Positions 12,732 through 30,108 of a stretch of DNA of 42,699 nucleotides are shown here, one piece after another. The stretch covers positions 1-42,699 of IMG/VR virus record IMGVR_UViG_3300047174_000188; one strand, 5' to 3'. Positions within the stretch are counted from its first letter, which is position 1. Every line of letters starts with the position of its first letter. The stretch comes from a virus. Under the pieces are notes generated by a model. It saw only the letters and a list, made by a program, of their open reading frames with translations, searched no databases and was not told the DNA's origin. A program made the position numbers and the translations under genes.

Positions 12732-13259
12732 ATGACGACTCGCGCAAAAATTAATACACTACTCTCTGTTTATGAGAATTACATCGGCACAGGCAATATG
12801 AAGCAAGCTGGGCGAACCCTGCCAAAGATTGTCCATGCTTTGATGGAATTTGTTGAAAATTACGACACCATGCGTAAGCAAGAGCGACAAGTTTATACTA
12901 TGGATAATATTCCGCCCGACCTTGCTCAAGACATTTTGGCGGGCTTAGATGAACTTCGTGCACCACGTGCCGACGATGAACCAGAAAAGCTTTTTGAATC
13001 TCCGGCGCCATGTGTCCAGTGTGATGTGTCAATCCCCAACAATCCAGACCTTATCGAAGAGTTCAAAAATCCTCTGGAAGCCGTTGCAGAAAAGGCAACG
13101 GAATTGGTGGGCGATATGGAAGTTGATTTAGAAGAAGAAATTAAGGGCGATGTCGATTTGACAGAAACACCCGAGCCAGAAGTCGAAACCTCGGCCGAAG
13201 TTAAGGAAGTTACTGTCCCCGCACCCAAGACACCGAAAAAGCCTAAAGCTGCAACCTGA
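12732..13259 (+). CDS. Acidic protein with a low-complexity tail, 175 aa
   Basis: The N-terminal 75 residues form a helical domain (ARTLPK is read here as GRTLPKIVHALMEFVENY). The C-terminal half is acidic and Pro/Val/Glu-rich and ends with a Lys/Pro tail (PAPKTPKKPKAAT). Two CxxC-like cysteines (APCVQCDV) sit at the junction. Function unknown. AGGA lies upstream of the ATG, and a strong hairpin follows the stop. Confidence 0.6.
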   Translation: MTTRAKINTLLSVYENYIGTGNMKQAGRTLPKIVHALMEFVENYDTMRKQERQVYTMDNIPPDLAQDILAGLDELRAPRADDEPEKLFESPAPCVQCDVSIPNNPDLIEEFKNPLEAVAEKATELVGDMEVDLEEEIKGDVDLTETPEPEVETSAEVKEVTVPAPKTPKKPKAAT

Positions 13260-13268
13260 TTTGGAAAA

Positions 13269-13311
13269 CAAGTTCCCGTCGATGAAGTAATTCTCTATCG
13301 ACGGGAACTTG
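13269..13311. terminator. 15-bp perfect hairpin after the uvsW operon
   Basis: CAAGTTCCCGTCGAT (13269-13283) and ATCGACGGGAACTTG (13297-13311) are perfect complements around a 13-base loop. It follows the stop at 13259 and precedes a fresh promoter at 13348, as expected for a transcription end. There is no T-tract after it, so it may work as an RNA 3'-end stabiliser or processing site instead of a classical intrinsic terminator. Confidence 0.65.
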
Positions 13312-13347
13312 GAGCAACCAAATAGCAGGGAGATGCCATCGGAAAAA

Positions 13348-13377
13348 TTGACTCTAGTGTCTGTCTTTATTTATAAT
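13348..13377 (+). promoter_or_regulatory. Sigma-70-like promoter with consensus -10
   Basis: TTGACT (13348-13353) and TATAAT (13372-13377) are separated by 18 bases. The element lies directly after the hairpin at 13269-13311 and 35 bases before the ATG at 13413, so it should drive the block starting with the clamp-loader-like gene. Confidence 0.75.
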
Positions 13378-13412
13378 GAAATAGTAAATGATAACGGATA
13401 GAGGCATTTTTT

Positions 13413-20694: not shown

Positions 20695-20709
20695 CCAATG
20701 ATCTAACGG

Positions 20710-20781
20710 ATGTATGGACTAACTCTAAATGAGCTTGGAAATCTGCTCAATATTTGCTGCACCCCCAAAAATAACCCTTGA
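20710..20781 (+). pseudogene. Truncated third tandem copy of the HDxSLLR family
   Basis: The frame from ATG 20710 reads MYGLTLNELGNLLNICCTPK and stops at TGA 20779. GLTLNELGNLLNICC aligns residue for residue with the starts of both upstream paralogs. Homology ends at about 20766, where base composition shifts to GC-rich. The original start is probably the ATG at 20691, now one base out of frame. The copy seems to have been cut by insertion of the GC-rich segment. Confidence 0.65.
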
Positions 20782-20806
20782 CTTACGCCCGCCCCGGCCC
20801 TAAGCT
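20778..20806 (+). promoter_or_regulatory. Sigma-70-like promoter in the GC-rich island
   Basis: TTGACT (20778-20783) and TAAGCT (20801-20806) are separated by 17 bases. The promoter is positioned to transcribe the small ORF at 20855 and the hairpins after it. Confidence 0.5.
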
Positions 20807-20854
20807 GCTTCTTGTCGGGCCGGTCGGGTCCGGGTTGATCGCTGGAGAGTGGTT

Positions 20855-20959
20855 ATGGTCCTGCTAACTGAAGAACAAGCGCGCGAAATTGTTGAGCGCA
20901 CGCGCGAACAACTTAAAAACTTCGCCCGGCGCACCGCGCAAAGCCCGTTCAAAGGCTAG
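20855..20959 (+). CDS. Small ORF, 34 aa, in the GC-rich island
   Basis: ATG 20855 lies seven bases after GGAGAG, a strong ribosome site, and downstream of the promoter at 20778. The product is a charged amphipathic helix (LLTEEQAREIVERTREQLKN) with a basic end. Codon use is GC-rich, unlike the phage genes. No family recognised; it could be a small regulatory or leader peptide. Confidence 0.45.
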   Translation: MVLLTEEQAREIVERTREQLKNFARRTAQSPFKG

Positions 20960-21002
20960 GTCGCCAAAAACCTCATAATTATTAACTACGGTGATCTCTA
21001 TG

Positions 21003-21030
21003 GGGTCTCGGTCGGTCCTCTTCGAGACCC
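21003..21030 (+). repeat. 8-bp perfect inverted repeat (hairpin)
   Basis: GGGTCTCG (21003-21010) and CGAGACCC (21023-21030) surround a 12-base loop. Further weaker hairpins follow (GGGC/GCCC near 21067-21084 and GCTGG/CCAGC near 21090-21115). Together they suggest a structured RNA or a terminator cluster behind the small ORF. Confidence 0.5.
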
Positions 21031-21144
21031 GAACCCCCGGCTTCTCGTCGCTCGCCGGTGTACCGGGCGCCCTAATGCCCGTTAAGTGCTGGCTTTAATT
21101 TGTCAATCCAGCGCCGCCTACCTTGGATATCGTTCACACGATGA

Positions 21145-21610: not shown

Positions 21611-22066
21611 ATCGTAAGCGACCACATTTCCCTTGCGTGTCGTTCCGATTTGTCGTGAGTCAATTTGACCCGACCATCTGGGGTATTCATCGCCTGACGT
21701 GTGTGGCTTAACTTTCTCCATAACCAAAATCGGCAAACCAATTTCTTTGTTAAAATAGAAAATTCGGCATGGCGCTATTGGAGCGAAATCGTTCTTGCGA
21801 TCATGTTGGTAATATTTTGCTTCTCGCATGTTATCCCATATTCCCTTATCATTTTTAGGAACTTTGAAAACATACTTGTCGCCTATAAAGGTCATCCGAT
21901 AGTTTCCAGTGCTATACGGGTAATTTTTATTAAGAAAATACTTGATAATTTCCATAGCATGGTCTTTTAATATTTTTTCATACTCAGAATTAACCGAATC
22001 AAAATGCAGGAAATGCTCCAACCATTCAAGATCGGTTTTCTCAGTGATGATTTCGTGATATCGCAT
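21605..22066 (-). CDS. Capsid-targeted kinase-like protein, 153 aa
   Basis: The start is ATG 22066, five bases after a TAAATA box; the frame extends further upstream but without signals. The first nine residues are MRYHEIITE, a predicted capsid-targeting peptide with an I-T-E cleavage site. The body resembles a minimal protein-kinase fold. It has a strand with a lysine (DKYVFKVPK, Lys68), a helix glutamate (NMREAKYY, Glu82), a hinge-like strand (LPILVMEKV), an IDSRQIG segment with Asp136 and a terminal VVAYD (Asp152) in the place of DFG. There is no C-lobe beyond it. Activity is uncertain. Confidence 0.65.
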   Translation of the reverse strand: MRYHEIITEKTDLEWLEHFLHFDSVNSEYEKILKDHAMEIIKYFLNKNYPYSTGNYRMTFIGDKYVFKVPKNDKGIWDNMREAKYYQHDRKNDFAPIAPCRIFYFNKEIGLPILVMEKVKPHTSGDEYPRWSGQIDSRQIGTTRKGNVVAYDL

Positions 22067-22071
22067 CAAAT

Positions 22072-22077
22072 TATTTA
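22072..22077 (-). promoter_or_regulatory. T4-late-like TAAATA box for 22066
   Basis: The minus strand reads CATAAATA, then five bases, then ATGCG at 22066. There is no ribosome site between the box and the ATG. The divergent gene at 22088 has GAGGAA in the same 21-base gap. Confidence 0.65.
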
Positions 22078-22087
22078 TGAGGAACAT

Positions 22088-22396
22088 ATGAAACTTTTTC
22101 TAGATGACGAACGCTTCCCGCCGGGATCGGGCGAAGGCTGGATTGTTGTTCGGAGTATGCGGGAAGCCATAGATTATATGGAAGCCAATGGTTGTCCTTC
22201 TTATTGGTCGTTTGATCATGATCTGGGCGATAACGAACCTACTGGATACGATCTGGTCAACTGGATCATAGAGCGCGATCTTGACGCGGAAGGGAAGTTC
22301 ATTCCAATAGATTTTGACTTTTATGTTCATAGTCAGAATCCAACAGGGAGAGACAACATCAATTTCAAGCTCCGTCCCTATCTGGATCAGCGGTGA
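22088..22396 (+). CDS. cREC-type receiver domain protein, 102 aa
   Basis: The start is ATG 22088 with GAGGAA upstream. The sequence follows the cyclic-phosphate-processing receiver (cREC) family: MKLFLDDERFPP at the N-terminus, SFDHDLGDNEPTGYDLVNWI in the middle, and a strand ending in VHSQNPTGRDNI. The family carries the receiver acidic pocket and was proposed from comparative genomics to act on cyclic nucleotides or phosphate ends. Divergent from the kinase-like gene, 21 bases away. Confidence 0.75.
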   Translation: MKLFLDDERFPPGSGEGWIVVRSMREAIDYMEANGCPSYWSFDHDLGDNEPTGYDLVNWIIERDLDAEGKFIPIDFDFYVHSQNPTGRDNINFKLRPYLDQR

Positions 22397-22417
22397 AACC
22401 AAAGGTCAAGCTTTTCG

Positions 22418-22446
22418 TTGACTAATTTTGATTTTGCGGGTAAATA
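22418..22446 (+). promoter_or_regulatory. Composite promoter: TTGACT with a TAAATA box
   Basis: TTGACT (22418-22423) is followed after exactly 17 bases by TAAATA (22441-22446), six bases before ATG 22453. It could be read as an early promoter, a late box, or both. Either way the transcript would start at or next to the ATG. Confidence 0.5.
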
Positions 22447-22452
22447 TTGCTC

Positions 22453-22713
22453 ATGATGATTACAACAAGAGCCCAACAACAAAAAGTTGGTGCAGCCGCC
22501 ATAAAAGTTGGTGGTTATAGAGAACTTGTCCGTCTTAGCCAAGAATGGCAAAAGACGAATGATCCTATTCTTCGTTGTGATCGATCTGGCAGATACTACG
22601 TAGGAGAACGGAATGAGACAGAGAAAGCCGAGAAAGCCTCGGAACATGGTGGCAAGAGCTGTGCGAGAGTGCAAGCTTTTCTCGCCAAAAGTCGTTCCCG
22701 CCAAAAAGGGTAA
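22453..22713 (+). CDS. Possible small protein, 86 aa
   Basis: ATG 22453 lies six bases after TAAATA with no ribosome site. The first 50 residues look like a helix-turn protein (KVGGYRELVRLSQEWQKTND). The last 34 codons overlap the better supported basic protein starting at 22613, so either the C-terminus is an out-of-frame overlap or the whole frame is doubtful. Confidence 0.4.
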   Translation: MMITTRAQQQKVGAAAIKVGGYRELVRLSQEWQKTNDPILRCDRSGRYYVGERNETEKAEKASEHGGKSCARVQAFLAKSRSRQKG

Positions 22714-22804
22714 GGGGACAGTTTATCAACGTCGGAGCCGGAACGCCAATGAGCCTTCCGGCTCTTATCATTTCTGGTTGACGAAAAGTTACATGTGGGC
22801 TTAG
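22613..22804 (+). CDS. Small basic phage protein, 63 aa
   Basis: GGAGAACGG precedes ATG 22613. The protein is strongly basic (RQRKPRKPRNMVARAVRECK, then PKVVPAKKGKGTVYQRRSRN) and resembles short RNP-VAR-x-KVV-KK-x-Y basic proteins found in many phages (DUF7230-like), of unknown role. A 9-bp hairpin and an early promoter lie within its 3' end, so the functional part may end near residue 45. Confidence 0.55.
   Translation: MRQRKPRKPRNMVARAVRECKLFSPKVVPAKKGKGTVYQRRSRNANEPSGSYHFWLTKSYMWA
22735..22764 (+). terminator. 9-bp perfect hairpin inside the 3' end of 22613-22804
   Basis: GAGCCGGAA (22735-22743) pairs with TTCCGGCTC (22756-22764) around a 12-base loop, and TTATCATTTCT follows. It lies directly before the promoter at 22778, as expected for an intrinsic terminator that uses coding DNA. 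Confidence 0.5.
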
Positions 22805-22807
22805 TAT
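22778..22807 (+). promoter_or_regulatory. Sigma-70-like promoter ahead of the ART genes
   Basis: TTGACG (22778-22783) is followed after 18 bases by TAGTAT (22802-22807). The context TTTCTGGTTGACGAAAA is shared with the promoter at 23936. Its predicted start point lies just before the TAAATA box of the same gene, so the gene may have both early and late promoters. Confidence 0.55.
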
Positions 22808-22813
22808 TCGACC

Positions 22814-22819
22814 TAAATA
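22814..22819 (+). promoter_or_regulatory. T4-late-like TAAATA box for 22824
   Basis: CCTAAATA is followed by four bases and then ATGCG at 22824. No ribosome site is present between the box and the start. Confidence 0.65.
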
Positions 22820-22823
22820 TTAG

Positions 22824-23339
22824 ATGCGCCCCCGTGAATTTCTGAACCTGAATGAGAACGCTCCGGCGATCCGTCTCTATCATGGTTCACGCATAGATTT
22901 TCCAGTCGGTACTATTCTGACCGCGCAAAAGGAAGGCTACGCCCACGGAAGCGGATACGACGGTGAAGAGTTGATCGCTCGTCAAATGTGCGAGGCTGGT
23001 CTTGACCGCTATCGTCCGACAGGAGCCCCAAGTCGTAAGCAAGCCGTTTTTATGTGCGATAATCCCGATAAGATTGATCTGGCTGGCGGTTATGATGATT
23101 TTATCTACGAGGTTGAGCCTATCGGAGACGTGTTTAAAGCTAACTTGTATTGGTATAGTGATCTCGAAGGCTATTGCTTTCATCTAGCGGTCGAAGCTGA
23201 AGAACCAGACGAAAATGATGTCCGACGCTGCGCTAAAGGCTATTGGAATTGTGTTCCGAATGATCTGGGAGAACCGGGGCGAGATTTGATCGAATATCTT
23301 GCGGGGACCGCTCGCATTATCAGAAAAATTTCTGGTTGA
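22824..23339 (+). CDS. Capsid-targeted ADP-ribosyltransferase-like protein, 171 aa
   Basis: It starts at ATG 22824 directly behind a late box. The leader is MRPREFLNLNE with cleavage predicted after L-N-E. The mature part begins with the ART strand (IRLYHGSRID), and further on has a SRKQAVFMCDNPDKIDLAGG segment and a strand IYEVEP, matching the H-G-T/S and second-strand regions of PARP/mART-like folds. A candidate catalytic glutamate is in LIEYLAGTARII. ARTs transfer ADP-ribose from NAD to a protein or nucleic acid; T4 packages one (Alt) that modifies host RNA polymerase. The target here is unknown. Confidence 0.75.
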   Translation: MRPREFLNLNENAPAIRLYHGSRIDFPVGTILTAQKEGYAHGSGYDGEELIARQMCEAGLDRYRPTGAPSRKQAVFMCDNPDKIDLAGGYDDFIYEVEPIGDVFKANLYWYSDLEGYCFHLAVEAEEPDENDVRRCAKGYWNCVPNDLGEPGRDLIEYLAGTARIIRKISG

Positions 23340-23348
23340 AGAAACGCA

Positions 23349-23354
23349 TAAATA
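23349..23354 (+). promoter_or_regulatory. T4-late-like TAAATA box for 23359
   Basis: CATAAATA is followed by four bases and then ATGCG at 23359. A damaged copy of the early promoter context (TTTCTGGTTGAAGAAA) lies just upstream, overlapping the previous stop. Confidence 0.65.
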
Positions 23355-23358
23355 AGTA

Positions 23359-23835
23359 ATGCGCTGGAATGAGATCATCAACGAGAGTCGTTCTGCGGAA
23401 CTTTACCACGGAACGACGGCGGAAGCCGCCGAGCAAATCGCGCATAGCGGCTTTCTACAGTCTGGCCGTCTCTACAAAATCAATGGCCGTGAGAACCCCG
23501 GCATCAGTGCTACCCGCGACAAACATCTGAATTATAGCTGCGAGGATGGCCCCGGTAGCGCCAGTGTGATTTTCGTTCTCAATCAAAGGAACATCGCGGC
23601 CCGTTATCGCATCGTCCCGTATATGGACAACGGGTTTTCCCGAGCAGACACCACGGAAAGCGAAGAGGTGATCTGCACGAAGCAACTTCCGCTCAACGCA
23701 AAAACTGTTGATTCGGTTGTGTTTCGTCAACCAGCGCCGACCCTTTTGAAGTGGTGCGAGGCAACCGGTATTCCAACCCATATTGAGTATTTCGAGCACG
23801 ACGAAAACGATCATTGGGACCCTGACCTATGGTGA
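23359..23835 (+). CDS. Capsid-targeted ADP-ribosyltransferase-like protein, 158 aa
   Basis: Leader MRWNEIINE with an I-N-E cleavage site. The mature part shows ART features: ELYHGTTAEAAEQIAHSGFL, then GISATRDKHLNYS, a strand SASVIFVLNQR, and a candidate catalytic glutamate loop in TTESEEVICTKQLPL. This is the H-Y-E-like order of PARP/Tpt1-type folds. The stop follows DPDLW. In the +1 frame an acidic tail (DDDDDDQDDEFDFREFGQ) continues to a TAG at 23888, so the end may have been cut by a one-base change. Confidence 0.75.
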   Translation: MRWNEIINESRSAELYHGTTAEAAEQIAHSGFLQSGRLYKINGRENPGISATRDKHLNYSCEDGPGSASVIFVLNQRNIAARYRIVPYMDNGFSRADTTESEEVICTKQLPLNAKTVDSVVFRQPAPTLLKWCEATGIPTHIEYFEHDENDHWDPDLW

Positions 23836-23935
23836 CGATGACGACGATGATCAGGACGATGAATTTGATTTTCGCGAGTTTGGTCAGTAGTCACCGGGGG
23901 CTTATCCTCATAGCGCACTAAAGGCTATTTTCTGG

Positions 23936-23964
23936 TTGACGAAAAATTTTATGAGCTATATGTT
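23936..23964 (+). promoter_or_regulatory. Sigma-70-like promoter
   Basis: TTGACG (23936-23941) and TATGTT (23959-23964) are separated by 17 bases. The promoter lies seven bases before ATG 23971, so that gene's message would be leaderless or nearly so. Confidence 0.6.
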
Positions 23965-23970
23965 GGGCTT

Positions 23971-24222
23971 ATGCCCTCGTTTGATTTTACCAGTCCTACC
24001 GAAACAATTTTGAAGCTTGCCAGCGCAGCTCCGATCTATCGGGGAATTTTAGGCTGGCCGAAGTCAATTGATCATAGAGATATTCGCAATCTTGTAGAAG
24101 CGAACTATTTGCGTCTTTTCTATGACTGGCAAAGAGACAGAGTTCTCGTGAAAATCACGCCCGCCGGGCAGTCTAGGTATAATGATATTATATGTGCCGA
24201 TCTCCAACCACTGGACAAATAA
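23971..24222 (+). CDS. Small winged-helix-like protein, 83 aa
   Basis: The sequence has a helix, a second helix (RDIRNLVEANYLRLFYD) and a beta hairpin (RDRVLVKITPAGQSRYND), the order of a small winged-helix DNA-binding domain ending in an x-I-T-P-x-G-x-x-x-Y wing. It may be a transcription regulator for the surrounding accessory genes. The following lipoprotein gene starts two bases after its stop. Confidence 0.5.
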   Translation: MPSFDFTSPTETILKLASAAPIYRGILGWPKSIDHRDIRNLVEANYLRLFYDWQRDRVLVKITPAGQSRYNDIICADLQPLDK

Positions 24223-24223
24223 C

Positions 24224-24556
24224 ATGAAAAGATCAACATGTGCGGCGATCTTGCTGGGCACAATATCTTTGTATGCCTGCTCCTCTAATGTTAGTCAACC
24301 ATCCACACCACACGATATTATCGCCGCCTACTTGACCAAGAATGGGTTTCACGTGGTTGATGTATCGATGATTGCTTCAACTGGTGCAGAATCGGTTTAC
24401 TCGGGTTCTGAAGCTACGATTGAAAAGCCAGAAACTGTCTGTCTTTCAGCTCCTTTCGGCGCCATGTATCGCGCGTATAGTGCTGATGGACAACAACACA
24501 TTGGCATCGCATGTTTGGAAAAAGACAACTCCATCACGATTCCTCTTCAACGCTGA
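24224..24556 (+). CDS. Putative lipoprotein, 110 aa
   Basis: ATG 24224 gives a short basic start (MKRS), a hydrophobic core (CAAILLGTISLYAC) and a lipobox LYAC with Cys19 as the lipidation site, followed by SSN. The mature domain is small and soluble with two cysteines (ETVCLSAP, IGIACLE) that could form a disulfide. Phage lipoproteins of this size block receptors against superinfection (as T5 Llp does) or serve in lysis; which applies is unknown. Confidence 0.65.
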   Translation: MKRSTCAAILLGTISLYACSSNVSQPSTPHDIIAAYLTKNGFHVVDVSMIASTGAESVYSGSEATIEKPETVCLSAPFGAMYRAYSADGQQHIGIACLEKDNSITIPLQR

Positions 24557-24572
24557 TTTTTAGGAAAAAATT

Positions 24573-25610
24573 ATGACCAACCCAAGCACAAATATCGTCT
24601 TTGCGGATCAATGGGGTGGGAGCGCTGATTTTATAAGTCGCGCCTTCAATCATCCAATAATTGAAAGTTTTGATGCCGCTTATGCTACACAAATCAAGGT
24701 CTCTATTGTCATCAATATGACGGGCACCTTTAAAGAGGTCATTGAATTTATTGTTCGGGATATACCTTCTCCCAATATTAAATTCTCCGAAGCTGGTAGT
24801 TTCATTGTTCAAAACCATAATGTAATTAAATCTTTGTTAATCCACGGAAGCGTAGATGTCAAAGACCCCTTTAAAATTTTCAATCGTTCATGTAAAATTT
24901 ATTTGAACGGTAGTTATGACGCAGTTGAACAGACTTATAATCGCCTTAATGACTACAATATAAACAATAAGAAAACTTTGTTATATTGGTGTTTTAAATC
25001 GAATGATAATATAGAGTTCGTTAAGTTTCCTCTCACTACTAATAGCCCAATTAGGTCTGAGTTTTATCCGTGGCTCGGGAAAGAAAATGTCAACGATTAC
25101 ATTGATCGTTTTGAAAATTCAAATTCAAACATTTTGATTCTTTTAGGAGAACCCGGAACTGGGAAAACTTCTTTTATACGTTACCTTATTACAAGAGCGA
25201 ACCAGCACTGTTTTACCACTTATGACGAAGAGGTAATGCAGCAGGATCAGCTTTATGTGAAATTTTTGTCGGAAGATGTCCGTTATCTTATTTTGGAAGA
25301 TGCTGACCTACTTTTGACAGATCGTATCAACACGGGTAACCGTGTCATGAGCAAAATGCTGAATGCGGCAGATGGGCTTGTTTCGTTCAATGATAAGAAA
25401 ATGATTTTTACGGCGAATATCCGAGACAAGGCAAAAATCGATGAGGCATTAGTTCGCAAAGGACGCTGCTTCGATGTTGTAGAATTTGAAGCTATGTCTC
25501 CGGAGCAAACAGTCAACGCGGCGAAGGCGGCTGGGTTAGATTTTAAATTCAATCCTAACCAGATACCGCGACGTTATTCTCTGGCAGAAATGTTCAGTTC
25601 GGCAGCTTAA
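24573..25610 (+). CDS. AAA+ ATPase, 345 aa
   Basis: A C-terminal AAA domain follows about 185 residues of unknown N-terminal domain. Walker A is GEPGTGKT (192-199), Walker B YLILEDAD (238-245), sensor 1 FTANI (279-283), and an RKGRC (295-299) likely supplies the arginine finger. The arrangement resembles BCS1-type or phage AAA chaperone ATPases. The target is probably set by the N-terminal domain. It is the last gene before a strong promoter and a non-coding stretch. Confidence 0.8.
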   Translation: MTNPSTNIVFADQWGGSADFISRAFNHPIIESFDAAYATQIKVSIVINMTGTFKEVIEFIVRDIPSPNIKFSEAGSFIVQNHNVIKSLLIHGSVDVKDPFKIFNRSCKIYLNGSYDAVEQTYNRLNDYNINNKKTLLYWCFKSNDNIEFVKFPLTTNSPIRSEFYPWLGKENVNDYIDRFENSNSNILILLGEPGTGKTSFIRYLITRANQHCFTTYDEEVMQQDQLYVKFLSEDVRYLILEDADLLLTDRINTGNRVMSKMLNAADGLVSFNDKKMIFTANIRDKAKIDEALVRKGRCFDVVEFEAMSPEQTVNAAKAAGLDFKFNPNQIPRRYSLAEMFSSAA

Positions 25611-25615
25611 CTTAT

Positions 25616-25644
25616 TTGACAGCACATTTGTTTAACCATATATT
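25616..25644 (+). promoter_or_regulatory. Near-consensus sigma-70 promoter
   Basis: TTGACA (25616-25621) and TATATT (25639-25644) are separated by 17 bases; it is the best-matching promoter in the window. It begins six bases after the AAA ATPase stop and points into 446 bases without a recognisable gene. Confidence 0.75.
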
Positions 25645-26056
25645 GGTTTTGTAGGAAGCAGATGCATATGGTTCTTACAAACGCCCGTCGTTTTGTGGTC
25701 CGGTAGACGTTAAACACCCAAGACTGCCCTTTGCTTGTTTTGGTAAATGAGCACTGCTGTGGAGAGCACTCGTCCTTCTCCTACGTTGTGGTGAGACGTT
25801 AAAGCACATCACGGTCTCGCTTAAGACCATAGACCCAGAATTGGCACTTCGGGGTCATAGCATTTTTAAAAGAGAGATGATGTGAAACCACTATTACAAG
25901 TCGTTGATGTTGCGTTAGCGCGCAGTCTACCGATGGGCGAAAACCAAGTATAGCTTCGAATCTAAACCGATATGGATGCGTAAGAGCTGCAGTTCGAACA
26001 GCTATGAAGAAAAATCAAGTTCTCGTAAAAATCGGGGTTACCCGACTGAGAATGAC
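25645..26056 (+). ncRNA. Candidate non-coding RNA locus with mini-ORFs
   Basis: No ORF over 30 codons is convincing. Short hairpins are visible: GAGAC/GTCTC (25793-25818) and GACCC/GGGTC (25832-25856), and AGCTG/CAGCT near 25985-26003. GACGTTAAA occurs twice (near 25707 and 25795). Three mini-ORFs have plausible signals: 25662-25706 (14 codons, with AGGAAG upstream), 25882-25953 (23 codons, GTG start with AGAGAG) and 26004-26060 (18 codons). It could be a regulatory RNA, a leader or a set of small peptides. Confidence 0.4.
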
Positions 26057-26335
26057 TTAACCTATAATGAAATCAGGCTCGGGCATCGTTTCGTCACTAT
26101 AATACAACCTGAACAAAACGCGATCATTTTCATCTGAAAAATAGAATGAACCATATCTTTCACTATAGCTCATAGGATTCTTGATATTTTCCCGACACCA
26201 TTCAACCATGCTGTTTAACATTTCAGAATTGTAGTTGCGATCATTGAAAAATGCCGCAGGATAAAGACCGAACTCAAATCGTCCTTTTCTTTGGTCCAGT
26301 TCAGGAAATGGTTCCGTATGCCAAAACTTAGCCAC
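26057..26335 (-). CDS. FKM-family small protein, 92 aa
   Basis: I chose GTG 26335, which overlaps the end of the upstream gene, over the longer frame from 26410. The protein is compact: FEFGLYPAAFFNDRNY, MLNSMVEWCRENI, and the tail GSFYFSDENDRVLFRLYY, a member of the F-x-(5)-D-x-(2)-F-(K/R)-(M/L) family. It is the last gene of the right minus-strand operon. Function unknown. Confidence 0.55.
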   Translation of the reverse strand: MAKFWHTEPFPELDQRKGRFEFGLYPAAFFNDRNYNSEMLNSMVEWCRENIKNPMSYSERYGSFYFSDENDRVLFRLYYSDETMPEPDFIIG

Positions 26336-26747
26336 GGACGATAACCAAATCAGGATTCTCGTAAACATGCACGAGCGTATTGACGGGGATGTAATCGGTA
26401 TCGATATCACGGCTGTAATGCAGATATTCGATTGCAGCTAATAATTGCTGCTTGTCAAACTCACTTGGCACTACAATCTCGATGATCGTAACCCATTGTT
26501 GATCTTTGCCCTTTGATTCATCGTAACGAACCATAGTTTTATCTTCGGATCGAACCGGGAGTGCGATCAGATCGTTACCTTCGCGCCAACGCAGATAGCG
26601 CCGAAAATCTTGGCAAAGACCAACAACCCATTCGGGTCCAAATTCTTCGCCAAAATGAATCAAGATCGGTAAAAGAGCAAATAAGCCTATCAGGGCAAAG
26701 ATGTCTCGAAAAATTCCTATAGCGTTCATAGCGTCATTCCATTTCAC
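26328..26747 (-). CDS. Membrane-anchored unknown protein, 139 aa
   Basis: A hydrophobic segment at about residues 11-31 (GIFRDIFALIGLFALLPILI) is followed by a soluble domain with a beta-strand end (NTLVHVYENPDLVIVRG). Single-pass membrane protein predicted. Overlaps both neighbours. No family recognised. Confidence 0.55.
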   Translation of the reverse strand: MKWNDAMNAIGIFRDIFALIGLFALLPILIHFGEEFGPEWVVGLCQDFRRYLRWREGNDLIALPVRSEDKTMVRYDESKGKDQQWVTIIEIVVPSEFDKQQLLAAIEYLHYSRDIDTDYIPVNTLVHVYENPDLVIVRG

Positions 26748-27312
26748 ATTCGTGCAGCAAACGAAACTCTACATAGTCTGTTAGGCTTTCAAAAAGAAAC
26801 ACTATACCATCGTCTGCTGTTTCGTCTTTGGCGGACCAGCGTCCTGTTTGGCTGCGTTTTTGGTGAAACCTAACTATTTCGTAGAACTGCTTATCAGAAA
26901 TTTGCGTAGTTATAGTATGAAACTTGATTTCTTGTCCAGCCAAGTGTAACTGATCCTCGGGAACATATTTTGAAAAAGGATCAAACCAAAAATTCATGTT
27001 ATCGGAAAACACTAGAGGGTTTCCCTGTAAAAATCTCAAATCACGAGCTAATTTAATAATCTTGCGAATTCTTTCTTTGTATTCATCGCTGAATTCAGAT
27101 GGAGAACAACGAAGGTCGCATCGTCCTCGTTGGAGAATTAATCTATAATTTCTAATGGTCGCGAATTGATCAAAAATTATATGACGATTACCATTATGCA
27201 ATCCAGATAAAGCAGAAATGTATTCTCGAATTTCTTTTTTCTTTTTGGTATAAAATTCGATCCTGATGTGCGTGAGCGAATCATACCCCGAATGCGCTCC
27301 TGACCACGCCAA
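26734..27312 (-). CDS. FKM-related protein, 192 aa
   Basis: The body is helical and basic (YTKKKKEIREYISALSG, then YKERIRKIIKLARDLRFLQG) and ends with IVFLFESLTDYVEFRLLHE, a divergent FKM-type tail. The true start is unclear: TTG 27312 is the only usual start near the observed domain, though the frame is open further upstream into the previous gene. Function unknown. Confidence 0.5.
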   Translation of the reverse strand: MAWSGAHSGYDSLTHIRIEFYTKKKKEIREYISALSGLHNGNRHIIFDQFATIRNYRLILQRGRCDLRCSPSEFSDEYKERIRKIIKLARDLRFLQGNPLVFSDNMNFWFDPFSKYVPEDQLHLAGQEIKFHTITTQISDKQFYEIVRFHQKRSQTGRWSAKDETADDGIVFLFESLTDYVEFRLLHECEME

Positions 27313-27374
27313 TGATCTCTCGACATCTTGGCCGCGAGCACGCTTGTTCTGTCTCCAAAGAAGAATATCTTTTT

Positions 27375-27767
27375 TCAGAATCGTATTCCCGAACGATACC
27401 GCACTTCGACTTTGCCGGGTGTCAGTATATAATAACTGCTTTCGTTGCCTTCAACTTCAAGATATAACACAAGCTTTCCGGCCGTCATGCCGTCAGCAAT
27501 TATTTGTGCTGCATCAGTGTCCCAGCAATACCAAACTTGAATTCTGTCATTGTAGCCGCCGAAATAGGCTTCGTCGCGCTCACTTAGAAGAATGGAGCCA
27601 TCTTCGTTTTGGCTGATCCAACCCTCAAAATCTTCTGGATTTGGATCGTCAAACTCAACCAATTCACGAATGGCTGAATTTTCAACCAGAGTTTTATTCA
27701 ATTCATCAAGGTCTTTGAAAACGATGCCTTCATTTTGATGAACGGTCAGATAGCAAGCCAAAACCAT
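27375..27767 (-). CDS. Unknown protein, 130 aa
   Basis: ATG 27767 has AAGGAA upstream; I prefer it to the longer start at 27794. The protein is acidic and beta-rich (EGWISQNEDGSILLS, then AGKLVLYLEVEGNESSYYIL). It is the first gene of its minus-strand operon behind the promoter at 27793-27820. No family recognised. Confidence 0.55.
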   Translation of the reverse strand: MVLACYLTVHQNEGIVFKDLDELNKTLVENSAIRELVEFDDPNPEDFEGWISQNEDGSILLSERDEAYFGGYNDRIQVWYCWDTDAAQIIADGMTAGKLVLYLEVEGNESSYYILTPGKVEVRYRSGIRF

Positions 27768-27792
27768 TGGTCTATTCCTTAGAATTAGAACC

Positions 27793-27820
27793 AAATTACC
27801 ATCTCATATGATTCCGTCAA
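27793..27820 (-). promoter_or_regulatory. Sigma-70-like promoter, minus strand
   Basis: TTGACG (27820-27815) and TAATTT (27798-27793) are separated by 16 bases, in the GGTTGACG context. It drives the minus operon 27767-26057 and lies back to back with the late box of the gene at 27841. Confidence 0.55.
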
Positions 27821-27830
27821 CCAAAAATTC

Positions 27831-27836
27831 TAAATA
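27831..27836 (+). promoter_or_regulatory. T4-late-like TAAATA box for 27841
   Basis: TCTAAATA is followed by four bases and then ATGCG at 27841, with no ribosome site. It is back to back with a minus-strand early promoter. Confidence 0.65.
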
Positions 27837-27840
27837 GAGT

Positions 27841-28428
27841 ATGCGCGCTTACGAAGTCCTATCGGAAGGTTTCAGTTATATCGGAAACTGCACTGACAAA
27901 TATACGGCTCCTCATCTTGAAGAAATGATGGATAAAGCTAAGCAAATCACTTATCGCACCTTTGTTAAAGCAGTCGGTCTTGATAATGTAAGAGAAATTT
28001 TTGGTGACTATTCATGGGGATATCAGCGTGGAGATGTTCGTATGAAGAATGATCCTTATGTATCATACTATCGTAGCACTTTTGATGGACAACCATGCTA
28101 TTATGTTCGTCACTCTGGAATCGAATACATCTTTGTAGGAGAACAAACAGAAGGTGAATTAGAAAAGAAAACCATACCGATCTCCGCAAATCGGTTTTCT
28201 ATTCTTGGAGATGGCGCCATCGTTCAAGGGATGTCTGACAGTGCCAGTGTGTTCCATGGCTCCAAAACTCCGAATTCGCTTGAAATTATGACATCGCGTG
28301 CACCAAGTGCAAAAGCAGCCAAATCTTTGATGCGGATGATTCGTCAATCTAAATTAGAAATGATCGAATGCGATGGTGATGAAACATCGGCAAAAGAAAT
28401 AATGTCTTGGCTTCGCAAGTTTATCTGA
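27841..28428 (+). CDS. Capsid-targeted protein of unknown function, 195 aa
   Basis: The leader is MRAYEVLSE with an L-S-E cleavage site followed by glycine, the residue preferred by gp21. The mature part contains a charged helix (LEEMMDKAKQITYRTFVKAV), a strand-rich centre (DPYVSYYRSTFDGQPCYYVR) and a helical end (SAKEIMSWLRKFI). I see no ART or kinase motif. Its stop overlaps, from the other strand, the end of the ART at 28421. A novel ejected effector is possible. Confidence 0.65.
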   Translation: MRAYEVLSEGFSYIGNCTDKYTAPHLEEMMDKAKQITYRTFVKAVGLDNVREIFGDYSWGYQRGDVRMKNDPYVSYYRSTFDGQPCYYVRHSGIEYIFVGEQTEGELEKKTIPISANRFSILGDGAIVQGMSDSASVFHGSKTPNSLEIMTSRAPSAKAAKSLMRMIRQSKLEMIECDGDETSAKEIMSWLRKFI

Positions 28429-29554
28429 GAATAGAATTGGCTCGAATGCCTTTTTCTATTGGTCCAACTTCATCATCCTGAACAGGTATATTGGCAACAC
28501 GGAACGAATTTATATCGTCATCATTCCAAAATACGTAAGCATTATGAAGAACTCCTATTGCCCCGCCGCCACGAGCCCCAGCCCCGGCAAGTTTGATGCC
28601 GCCGTCATATTGCAGTCCAACGTATCCAGAATTTTGAAGGGCGGACATGAGCTTGTATTGGTTTTCTTTCTTGTGAAACAAAGTTGTTCCGGCGTGTGTT
28701 CCATTCCAAAGAATATCTAGAGAAGGATTTTCTCCTTTACCACCAAAAATACTATCGGTCCAAGCATAACGGGCGCCATGCTTTTTGAAACCAGAAACAT
28801 AGCTATCAAAAGTATGGCCCATAGTTTCTTGGTGACCATCCATAGCACGCAAGTCCATCGGACGATCTTCTTTGCCGTCTAAAAATAATTCTTTAACTAT
28901 TTTTAGAACTTCATCGGAAAGTGGACGATCTGTGTGAACAACCCGTGCTACATAGTTTTCGGGAACTTCAAATTTTGAAATTGAGCCTGAGCGATTGGGT
29001 TTGGCTAGAACATATTCACCAGTGGTCAATTTTACAATACGAAGATTCGGGCGGCGATTTTTAAATACAGCCTTTGCTTTGTCAACATAAACGCGAATTG
29101 CTTTGGATCGAGCTATTTTAAATGCTTCATTAAACTCTTGGCTAAGTTTTTTCTCAACAGCTCTGTTTTCTTCTGCTTTAGAAGAATCGCTCCAGTCTAA
29201 ATCTCCTCTGGCTTTATAAAAATTAGCCTGATATTCTTTCTTTAGCTTTTCAACTGCTTCATCAAAGCCAAGTTCAGCCATGATTTTCCGAAGATAATTA
29301 CGCATTAAATCCTGTGTAGTATATGGAATCAGTTCATCATTCCGTTCATTTGCACGATATTCTATATCATCGCCGCCAACGTCTTTTACGGTATAATCAC
29401 CAGCAATATCAGGACTATCGGTTAGATATATACCTTGACCAAAAAGCCCCCACTCTTTTGTTTTCGCGACTTCAAAACGCTCAATAGTTTCACTGTCGCC
29501 CCGATAGAGAGTTACAGTGCCAGAAGCCTCAAAGAGTTTTATCCATTCGCGCAT
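28421..29554 (-). CDS. Capsid-targeted ADP-ribosyltransferase-like protein, 377 aa
   Basis: The leader is MREWIKLFE with an L-F-E site followed by alanine. The ART core is split. The first part is VTLYRGDSETIERFE and LFGQGIYLTDSPDIAGDYT; a helical charged insertion follows (about residues 70-180). The later YVGLQYDGGIKLAG and HNAYVFWNDDDINSFRV match the second half of ART-PolyVal-type domains, which end Y-D-G-...-x-F-x-x-x-x-I-x-S. It is the largest of the set. Target unknown. Confidence 0.78.
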   Translation of the reverse strand: MREWIKLFEASGTVTLYRGDSETIERFEVAKTKEWGLFGQGIYLTDSPDIAGDYTVKDVGGDDIEYRANERNDELIPYTTQDLMRNYLRKIMAELGFDEAVEKLKKEYQANFYKARGDLDWSDSSKAEENRAVEKKLSQEFNEAFKIARSKAIRVYVDKAKAVFKNRRPNLRIVKLTTGEYVLAKPNRSGSISKFEVPENYVARVVHTDRPLSDEVLKIVKELFLDGKEDRPMDLRAMDGHQETMGHTFDSYVSGFKKHGARYAWTDSIFGGKGENPSLDILWNGTHAGTTLFHKKENQYKLMSALQNSGYVGLQYDGGIKLAGAGARGGGAIGVLHNAYVFWNDDDINSFRVANIPVQDDEVGPIEKGIRANSILR

Positions 29555-29558
29555 ACGA

Positions 29559-29564
29559 TATTTA
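29559..29564 (-). promoter_or_regulatory. T4-late-like TAAATA box for 29554
   Basis: The minus strand reads GCTAAATA, four bases, then ATGCG at 29554. It sits inside the 14-base gap after the stop of the upstream gene, giving each effector its own late promoter even within a run of same-strand genes. Confidence 0.65.
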
Positions 29565-29568
29565 GCTC

Positions 29569-30108
29569 TTAGGCTATCGTATTCATATTTGGCGAAGATA
29601 TTGTTTTTCCAGATTGTTCGTCCACAATGGATTCCAATTTTACTGGACCATCCAAGTATAGCTCGTTTTCATCTGGATGCGTAAAATGAGATGTGAGACT
29701 TTTCATCCAATTAATTGATGAAGCAGGAGCAACTCCAAATAAAATAATAACATGTGCTTTTGGAGCTTGATCGTGATAACCAACCGACGCACTACTCTCA
29801 TTGTAGGTCCAATGATGTCCGAGCTTTGCTCCATTTTCGGTAGCAACAAGAAAAGAATTGATATCATCAACCGAAATCATACGGCAGACATCTATAATAC
29901 CCCTCGACTGTATGAAATAAAAAGTCTCCATACAGTGGTCAAAATAAGCACTCAGAAGACCGTCTTCGTCTCCTTCATAGTCTGGTAATAGATATTGTAT
30001 TGAGCTTTCTTCAGCGTGGGGTGCAATATTTAAAAGAAACTTATCCTTATTATCTACCAGATAATCAATCGGATTGGCAGAAGCTTCTTTTATTTCCGAA
30101 TATCGCAT
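29569..30108 (-). CDS. Capsid-targeted protein, possibly ART-like, 179 aa
   Basis: I set the start at ATG 30108, four bases after a late box; the frame runs further upstream. The leader is MRYSEIKE with an I-K-E site followed by alanine. The mature part has a helix (SSIQYLLPDYEGDE), GAKLGHHWTYNESSASVGY, then HVIILFGVAPASSINW and HPDENELYLDGPVKLESI. The last element resembles the third ART motif with a glutamate pair (E-N-E), but the first motif is not clear, so the ART call is tentative. Confidence 0.6.
   Translation of the reverse strand: MRYSEIKEASANPIDYLVDNKDKFLLNIAPHAEESSIQYLLPDYEGDEDGLLSAYFDHCMETFYFIQSRGIIDVCRMISVDDINSFLVATENGAKLGHHWTYNESSASVGYHDQAPKAHVIILFGVAPASSINWMKSLTSHFTHPDENELYLDGPVKLESIVDEQSGKTISSPNMNTIA

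Follow-up and report, generated by a model that had tools for sequence, protein, structure and literature searches.

Positions 25611 to about 26050 of the window, that is, of the whole stretch of viral DNA analysed (42,699 nucleotides), probably hold an autonomous gene encoding a structured non-coding RNA in a jumbo-phage lineage, a putative assignment made from the sequence. A folded RNA is preferred to a protein product because a second, 415-kb genome (G002) holds a syntenic version of the element, with its start signal, two conserved blocks at their fixed spacing and a rebuilt hairpin. In favor of this reading are the synteny, the chain of matching blocks, the uniqueness of GACGTTAAA, a compensated 5' hairpin (P1), two helices (P2 and P3) that share one 3' strand, and the fold and terminator of the G002 copy. 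Against it are the membership of two, the failure of searches started from the window only, the unexceptional fold of the window copy and an inner domain that cannot be aligned. The regulatory RNA that an earlier note had proposed here survives, by virtue of the G002 counterpart, as a putative structured non-coding RNA gene, while the regulatory role is unsupported.

The window is a 42.7-kb virus record with a DnaB-type helicase that shares 55% identity with its counterpart in Agrobacterium phage Atu_ph07 (490 kb), 51% with that in Sinorhizobium phage Phosso (469 kb), and 77% and 75% with those in two IMG/VR contigs (45.9 kb and 415 kb). The 415-kb contig, IMGVR_UViG_3300050120_000230, is the comparison genome G002, where about 25 or more window genes are found in largely conserved order. 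Considering these helicase relatives and the gene order in G002, the window is, as judged from its sequence, a piece of a jumbo phage with nearest relatives of 415-490 kb. Thus, the earlier premise of a compact phage is wrong, and the window contains, in addition, another ORF-free gap, of 428 bases (20695-21122).

The stretch under study comprises 446 bases (25611-26056) without ORFs of at least 60 aa on either strand, confirming the claimed absence of a normal gene. The features of the locus are the following.

24573..25610, + strand: upstream AAA ATPase (Pfam AAA, phrog_14322), found elsewhere in G002
25616..25644, + strand: sigma-70-type promoter, TTGACA (25616-25621)-N17-TATATT (25639-25644), 11/12 match
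25635-25644, + strand: -10 region ACCATATATT, identical in G002
25649..25680, + strand: 5' hairpin P1, TTGTAGGAA/TTCTTACAA, with a palindromic UGCA apex in both genomes
25681..25689, + strand: conserved block 1, ACGCCCGTC, the last 8 bases being the 5' strand of the closing helix P2
25682-25689, + strand: 5' strand of P2 (CGCCCGUC in RNA), a long-range helix after P1
25702..25708, + strand: 5' strand of helix P3, GGTAGAC, an alternative of equal predicted energy
25706..25715, + strand: conserved block 2, GACGTTAAAC, 16 bases past block 1 in both genomes
25767..25803, + strand: degenerate second block pair, CACTCGTC-N20-GACGTTAAA, in the window only
25925..25931, + strand: 3' strand of P3, GTCTACC, with the 3' strand of P2 directly after
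25932..25939, + strand: 3' strand of P2, GATGGGCG (GAUGGGCG in RNA), pairing with 25682-25689
25949..26006, + strand: 3' hairpin, TATAGCTTCGAAT.../GTTCGAACAGCTATG, a fold prediction
26027..26045, - strand: terminator-like hairpin TCGGG-TAAC-CCCGA (26032-26045), then TTTTT on the - strand
26057..26410, - strand: convergent gene, function unassigned, with a 53% identical homolog right of the locus in G002

The promoter starts five bases past the stop of the AAA gene (25610) and is the top-scoring site within 22000-30000. Its earlier description as the best in the window is correct as to its sequence and for that interval, but a site at 13348 (TTGACT-N18-TATAAT) ties with it at 11/12. Since dinucleotide-shuffled windows hold 1.3 +/- 1.3 sites of 11/12, against two in the window, the match alone is not significant. 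At the other end, the stretch runs into the convergent gene, as had been described, and the hairpin at 26027..26045 (-) probably ends this gene and limits the RNA region; the window copy shows no evident terminator on the + strand.

The place compared in G002 was set by synteny. The counterpart lies at 204223-204508, as read within the non-coding stretch L020 4191-4508 (a segment of G002), and is flanked by homologs of window 23971-24222 and 26057-26410. Its promoter consists of a -35 TTGCAG, a spacer of 17 bases and TATATT, the ten bases ACCATATATT being the same as in the window, and in both genomes there follow a hairpin of differing sequence, ACGCCCGTC, exactly 16 bases, and GACGTTAAAC. 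The repeated sequence noticed earlier in the ORF-free stretch, GACGTTAAA, is indeed present twice, and these copies, at 25706 and 25795 and both inside the element, are the only ones in the window; its single occurrence in the 415 kb of G002, considering either strand, is also inside the element. Two or more copies anywhere in a shuffled window were produced by 10% of the shuffles. The collinear chain of exact matches (10, 9 and 10 bases) was reached by 1 of 20,000 dinucleotide-shuffled pairs and by none of 20,000 random real pairs. Gapped alignment of the window and G002 copies was unremarkable with one scoring and reached by 0/300 shuffles with another, while ungapped-segment and 35-mer identity tests gave unremarkable scores, being too coarse to distinguish the pair. 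The inner domains, of unequal length in the two copies, are not alignable.

Neighbors of the element differ between both genomes. To its left stands the AAA ATPase in the window versus the homolog of window 23971-24222 in G002, where the AAA homolog is found at 405532, some 200 kb away; as it is absent from this place in G002, the AAA ATPase is not considered part of the element. To its right, two ORFs absent from the window separate the G002 element from the homolog of 26057-26410. The element has kept its place and promoter while the neighbors on both sides were exchanged, and this persistence amid the exchange of flanking protein genes suggests a selected role during infection. The conservation in relatives on which the earlier note had made its proposal depend was looked for, and the G002 copy keeps the -10 region, the blocks with their spacing and a compensated hairpin.

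P1 begins about five to seven bases past the -10 in both genomes, so that the transcript would start near the base of this hairpin, around position 25651. Of its seven compared pairs, four carry changes in both partners, one in a single partner and two are identical, with none broken. Shifting the opposite strand by 1-3 bases lowered pairing to 50% or less. Because MAFFT misaligns P1, the G002 row of this two-sequence comparison was trimmed by hand, which meant taking out a bulged T, shortening the interior and inserting two filler bases; within these bounds, P1 presents the compensatory changes between homologous copies that are expected of a structured non-coding RNA. A 4.5S-RNA-like GGAAGCAG in P1 was discarded, G002 containing no such sequence.

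Regarding the long-range helices, the 3' strand of P2 comes directly after GUCUACC, the partner of GGUAGAC at 25702-25708, and therefore the GAC of block 2 belongs to P3. The minimum-energy fold of the window copy and the fold with P3 have the same predicted energy (-94.2 kcal/mol). P2 and P3 on one contiguous 3' strand were found in 2 of 3000 shuffles (a post hoc test on the window), and two of the five P3 pairs are, by inspection, compensated in G002. There, a roughly 30-bp imperfect stem with CGUC/GGCG and GAGGA/UCCUC lies at the same distance from CGUUAAAC. The transcript may extend through the 3' hairpin predicted at 25949..26006 or end before it.

The small stem-loops reported earlier are real, but the fold of the window copy has only a moderate advantage over shuffles (z -1.9 to -2.3) and is equalled by 4 of 29 other 298-base stretches. 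The G002 copy reaches a z of -4.35 (0/200 shuffles), or -3.2 without its terminator, and a few other stretches of G002 fold as extremely. It ends in a 12-bp G+C-rich hairpin, AAGGCCCCGGCG/CGCCGGGGCTTT, with a 3' arm ending in TTT, which is predicted to be a strong intrinsic terminator.

Searches for known families and further copies are in general negative. Rfam returned nothing at gathering score for either copy, with chance-level matches only up to E 10, and the GOLLD, ROOL and OLE covariance models gave no match in either copy up to E 10. Rfam matches to 6S RNA, self-splicing introns, RNase P RNA or small ribozymes were likewise absent, and ARAGORN detected no tRNA or tmRNA near the element. 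The region had no blastn match among phages and plasmids, and the G002 copy had a single one among phages, of 37 bases (E 0.3) and inside an annotated gene. Anchoring IMG/VR searches on the AAA ATPase or on the 377-aa gene of the - strand revealed no relatives. The block-pair pattern (15-17 spacing, then relaxed) revealed no convincing further copy in IMG/VR or in GTDB genomes, almost all other matches being in open frames and one group in a tRNA-like stretch; the best of them to the model (24.5 bits) has no hairpin and lies in a coding frame. About 60 further helicase- or neighbor-anchored records (about 48 of them helicase-anchored) contained no copy, and model R1 detected nothing beyond G002 on whole helicase-clade records, Atu_ph07, Phosso and neighbor-anchored contigs. 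The E-value of R1 for the G002 copy (2.8e-11) is circular and was excluded from the evidence. Since window-only searches (nhmmer and covariance model R2) did not find the G002 copy, homology rests on synteny together with the block chain. The members found are two, both metagenomic, and the accessory region holding the element seems specific to the clade of the window and G002. A CRISPR-repeat mimic was also considered and rejected, since the 16-base middle lacks conservation and exceeds the size of a repeat hairpin loop.

Among known RNAs, 6S RNA and phage 6S-like sRNAs resemble the element in being long, dominated by a stem (the imperfect one of the G002 copy) and in having their own promoter. 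It differs from 6S RNA in having no Rfam match, and the G002 stem lacks the large central bulge typical of 6S RNA. Similarly to GOLLD and ROOL, large structured RNAs of phages and prophages, the element is intergenic and would form its own transcription unit, with long-range helices predicted to close a multibranched structure; unlike them, it has no Rfam match at E values up to 10. Many GOLLD members exceed 800 nt, with conservation at the 3' end (PMC12286853), whereas the element measures about 270 to 400 nt, is conserved at its 5' end and has no tRNA near. In GOLLD and OLE, palindromic loops are reported to pair with each other as symmetric kissing loops (PMC12286853), of which the UGCA palindrome at the P1 apex of both copies is at most a hint. 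Novel RNA-seq transcripts have been described in lytic jumbo phages, for example phiR1-37 of Yersinia (reviewed in PMC12197685); these RNAs, likewise undescribed and from a large phage, were found as transcripts, while the element was found by genome comparison alone. It likely belongs to a known general class of RNAs as an undescribed member, drawn from two genomes. If confirmed, it would represent an undescribed RNA family in jumbo phages, where almost only proteins are annotated, and two diverged metagenomic phage genomes can expose an RNA that Rfam and single-sequence searches miss.

As a structured RNA gene, the element would be transcribed rightwards by host RNA polymerase from 25616-25644, starting near 25651, and the RNA would open with P1 at its very 5' end. 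The long-range helix of 25682-25689 with 25932-25939 would then close a multibranched domain, with the conserved GACGUUAAAC just inside. The host-type promoter suggests the use of the host polymerase, perhaps early, and we infer both that the element is transcribed and where its 3' end lies. A folded RNA acting by its shape, bound to protein or to itself and with the two blocks as recognition core, is a tentative proposal for its mode of action; it is favored because the RNA is long, mostly paired, and conserved in short blocks at helix ends and not in an open antisense seed. Much more speculative, and in our opinion very improbable, is a new self-associating RNA family operating via the palindromic UGCA loop of P1, resembling on a small scale the GOLLD/ROOL cages or a packaging-type RNA ring, with ACGCCCGUC and GACGUUAAAC as core. 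The UGCA apex, next to A-U in one of the copies and to G-C in the other, is equally explained by the closing base pair of the P1 hairpin.

An alternative that we regard as unlikely is a cis-acting DNA element, in which ACGCCCGTC-N16-GACGTTAAAC would bind a phage or host protein just downstream of the promoter, or act as an R-loop type origin, the RNA being incidental. Conservation of the blocks as sequence, the CGTC...GACG dyad (inverted half-sites spaced by 20 bp, with the 16-base gap unchanged between genomes), and the promoter with the same -10 upstream of them all agree with such a site. However, it is single-copy in the 415 kb of G002, while the binding sites of regulators are usually repeated in a genome, and no gene lies downstream in the direction of the promoter. 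In addition, the cumulative GC skew near 26 kb shows a local maximum instead of a minimum and tracks gene strand, and the compensated 5' hairpin and the terminator would be left unexplained.

A base-pairing small RNA, an antisense regulator of phage or host mRNAs that might include read-through antisense to 26057-26410, has a similarly low probability. The convergent layout and the lack of a clear terminator on the + strand of the window are consistent with it, and there is precedent for antisense and trans-acting sRNAs encoded by phages (review PMC12197685). On the contrary, the strong terminator of G002 ends the RNA right at the convergent ORF, and overlap with the convergent gene is therefore not conserved; nor is there a long unpaired conserved stretch.

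The micropeptide cluster suggested earlier was based on three mini-ORFs of 14-23 codons, which are present together with a longer frame.

ATG 25662: mini-ORF of 14 aa, with a weak AGGA five bases upstream
TTG 25731: mini-ORF of 23 aa
GTG 25882: mini-ORF of 23 aa
25976-26137: ORF of 53 aa, overlapping the convergent gene

Apart from the AGGA preceding the 14-codon ORF, the data speak against a peptide product. By inspection, the corresponding frame in G002 has no ATG, GTG or TTG start, the sequence upstream of block 1 being rebuilt there as another hairpin, and tblastx gave chance-level matches only (E 1 or more). Reading frames are not conserved between both copies, as expected of a structured non-coding RNA, and the cluster, sharing neither a common frame nor translated similarity, is unsupported and highly improbable. 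Equally implausible is ordinary unconstrained intergenic DNA with a chance promoter and a coincidental resemblance to G002: chance alone would yield such a promoter match somewhere along the window, the window copy folds weakly and single-sequence searches miss the G002 copy, but the block chain, at a position dictated by synteny, was reached by only 1 of 20,000 shuffled pairs, GACGTTAAA is unique and the hairpin is compensated.

Some other features of these genomes were also observed. In G002 (405484-407075), the AAA ATPase homolog is directly followed by an apparent ClpP-type protease, as judged by eye, hinting that this AAA family is possibly an unfoldase partner of a ClpP-type protease; in the window, the AAA ATPase stands alone, without adjoining protease. 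The promoter match at 13348 belongs to a region (13268-13390) where a 14-bp inverted repeat (AAGTTCCCGTCGAT...ATCGACGGGAACTT) comes after the gene ending at 13259 and before the match. The second ORF-free gap (20695-21122) has no matching non-coding stretch at the corresponding place in G002 and no Rfam match; it includes a G+C-rich stretch, shows a fold z of about -1, and may contain a 34-aa ORF (20855-20959) with GGAGAG upstream. The protein encoded at 28421-29554 (-) is 47-49% conserved in both close relatives, at differing genome positions, and weakly resembles, below cutoff, ADP-ribosyltransferase-type polyvalent proteins (PF18760). Finally, on either strand, the stretches 22451-22600 and 23301-23450 give folds far more stable than those of shuffles (z about -3.2 to -4.5).
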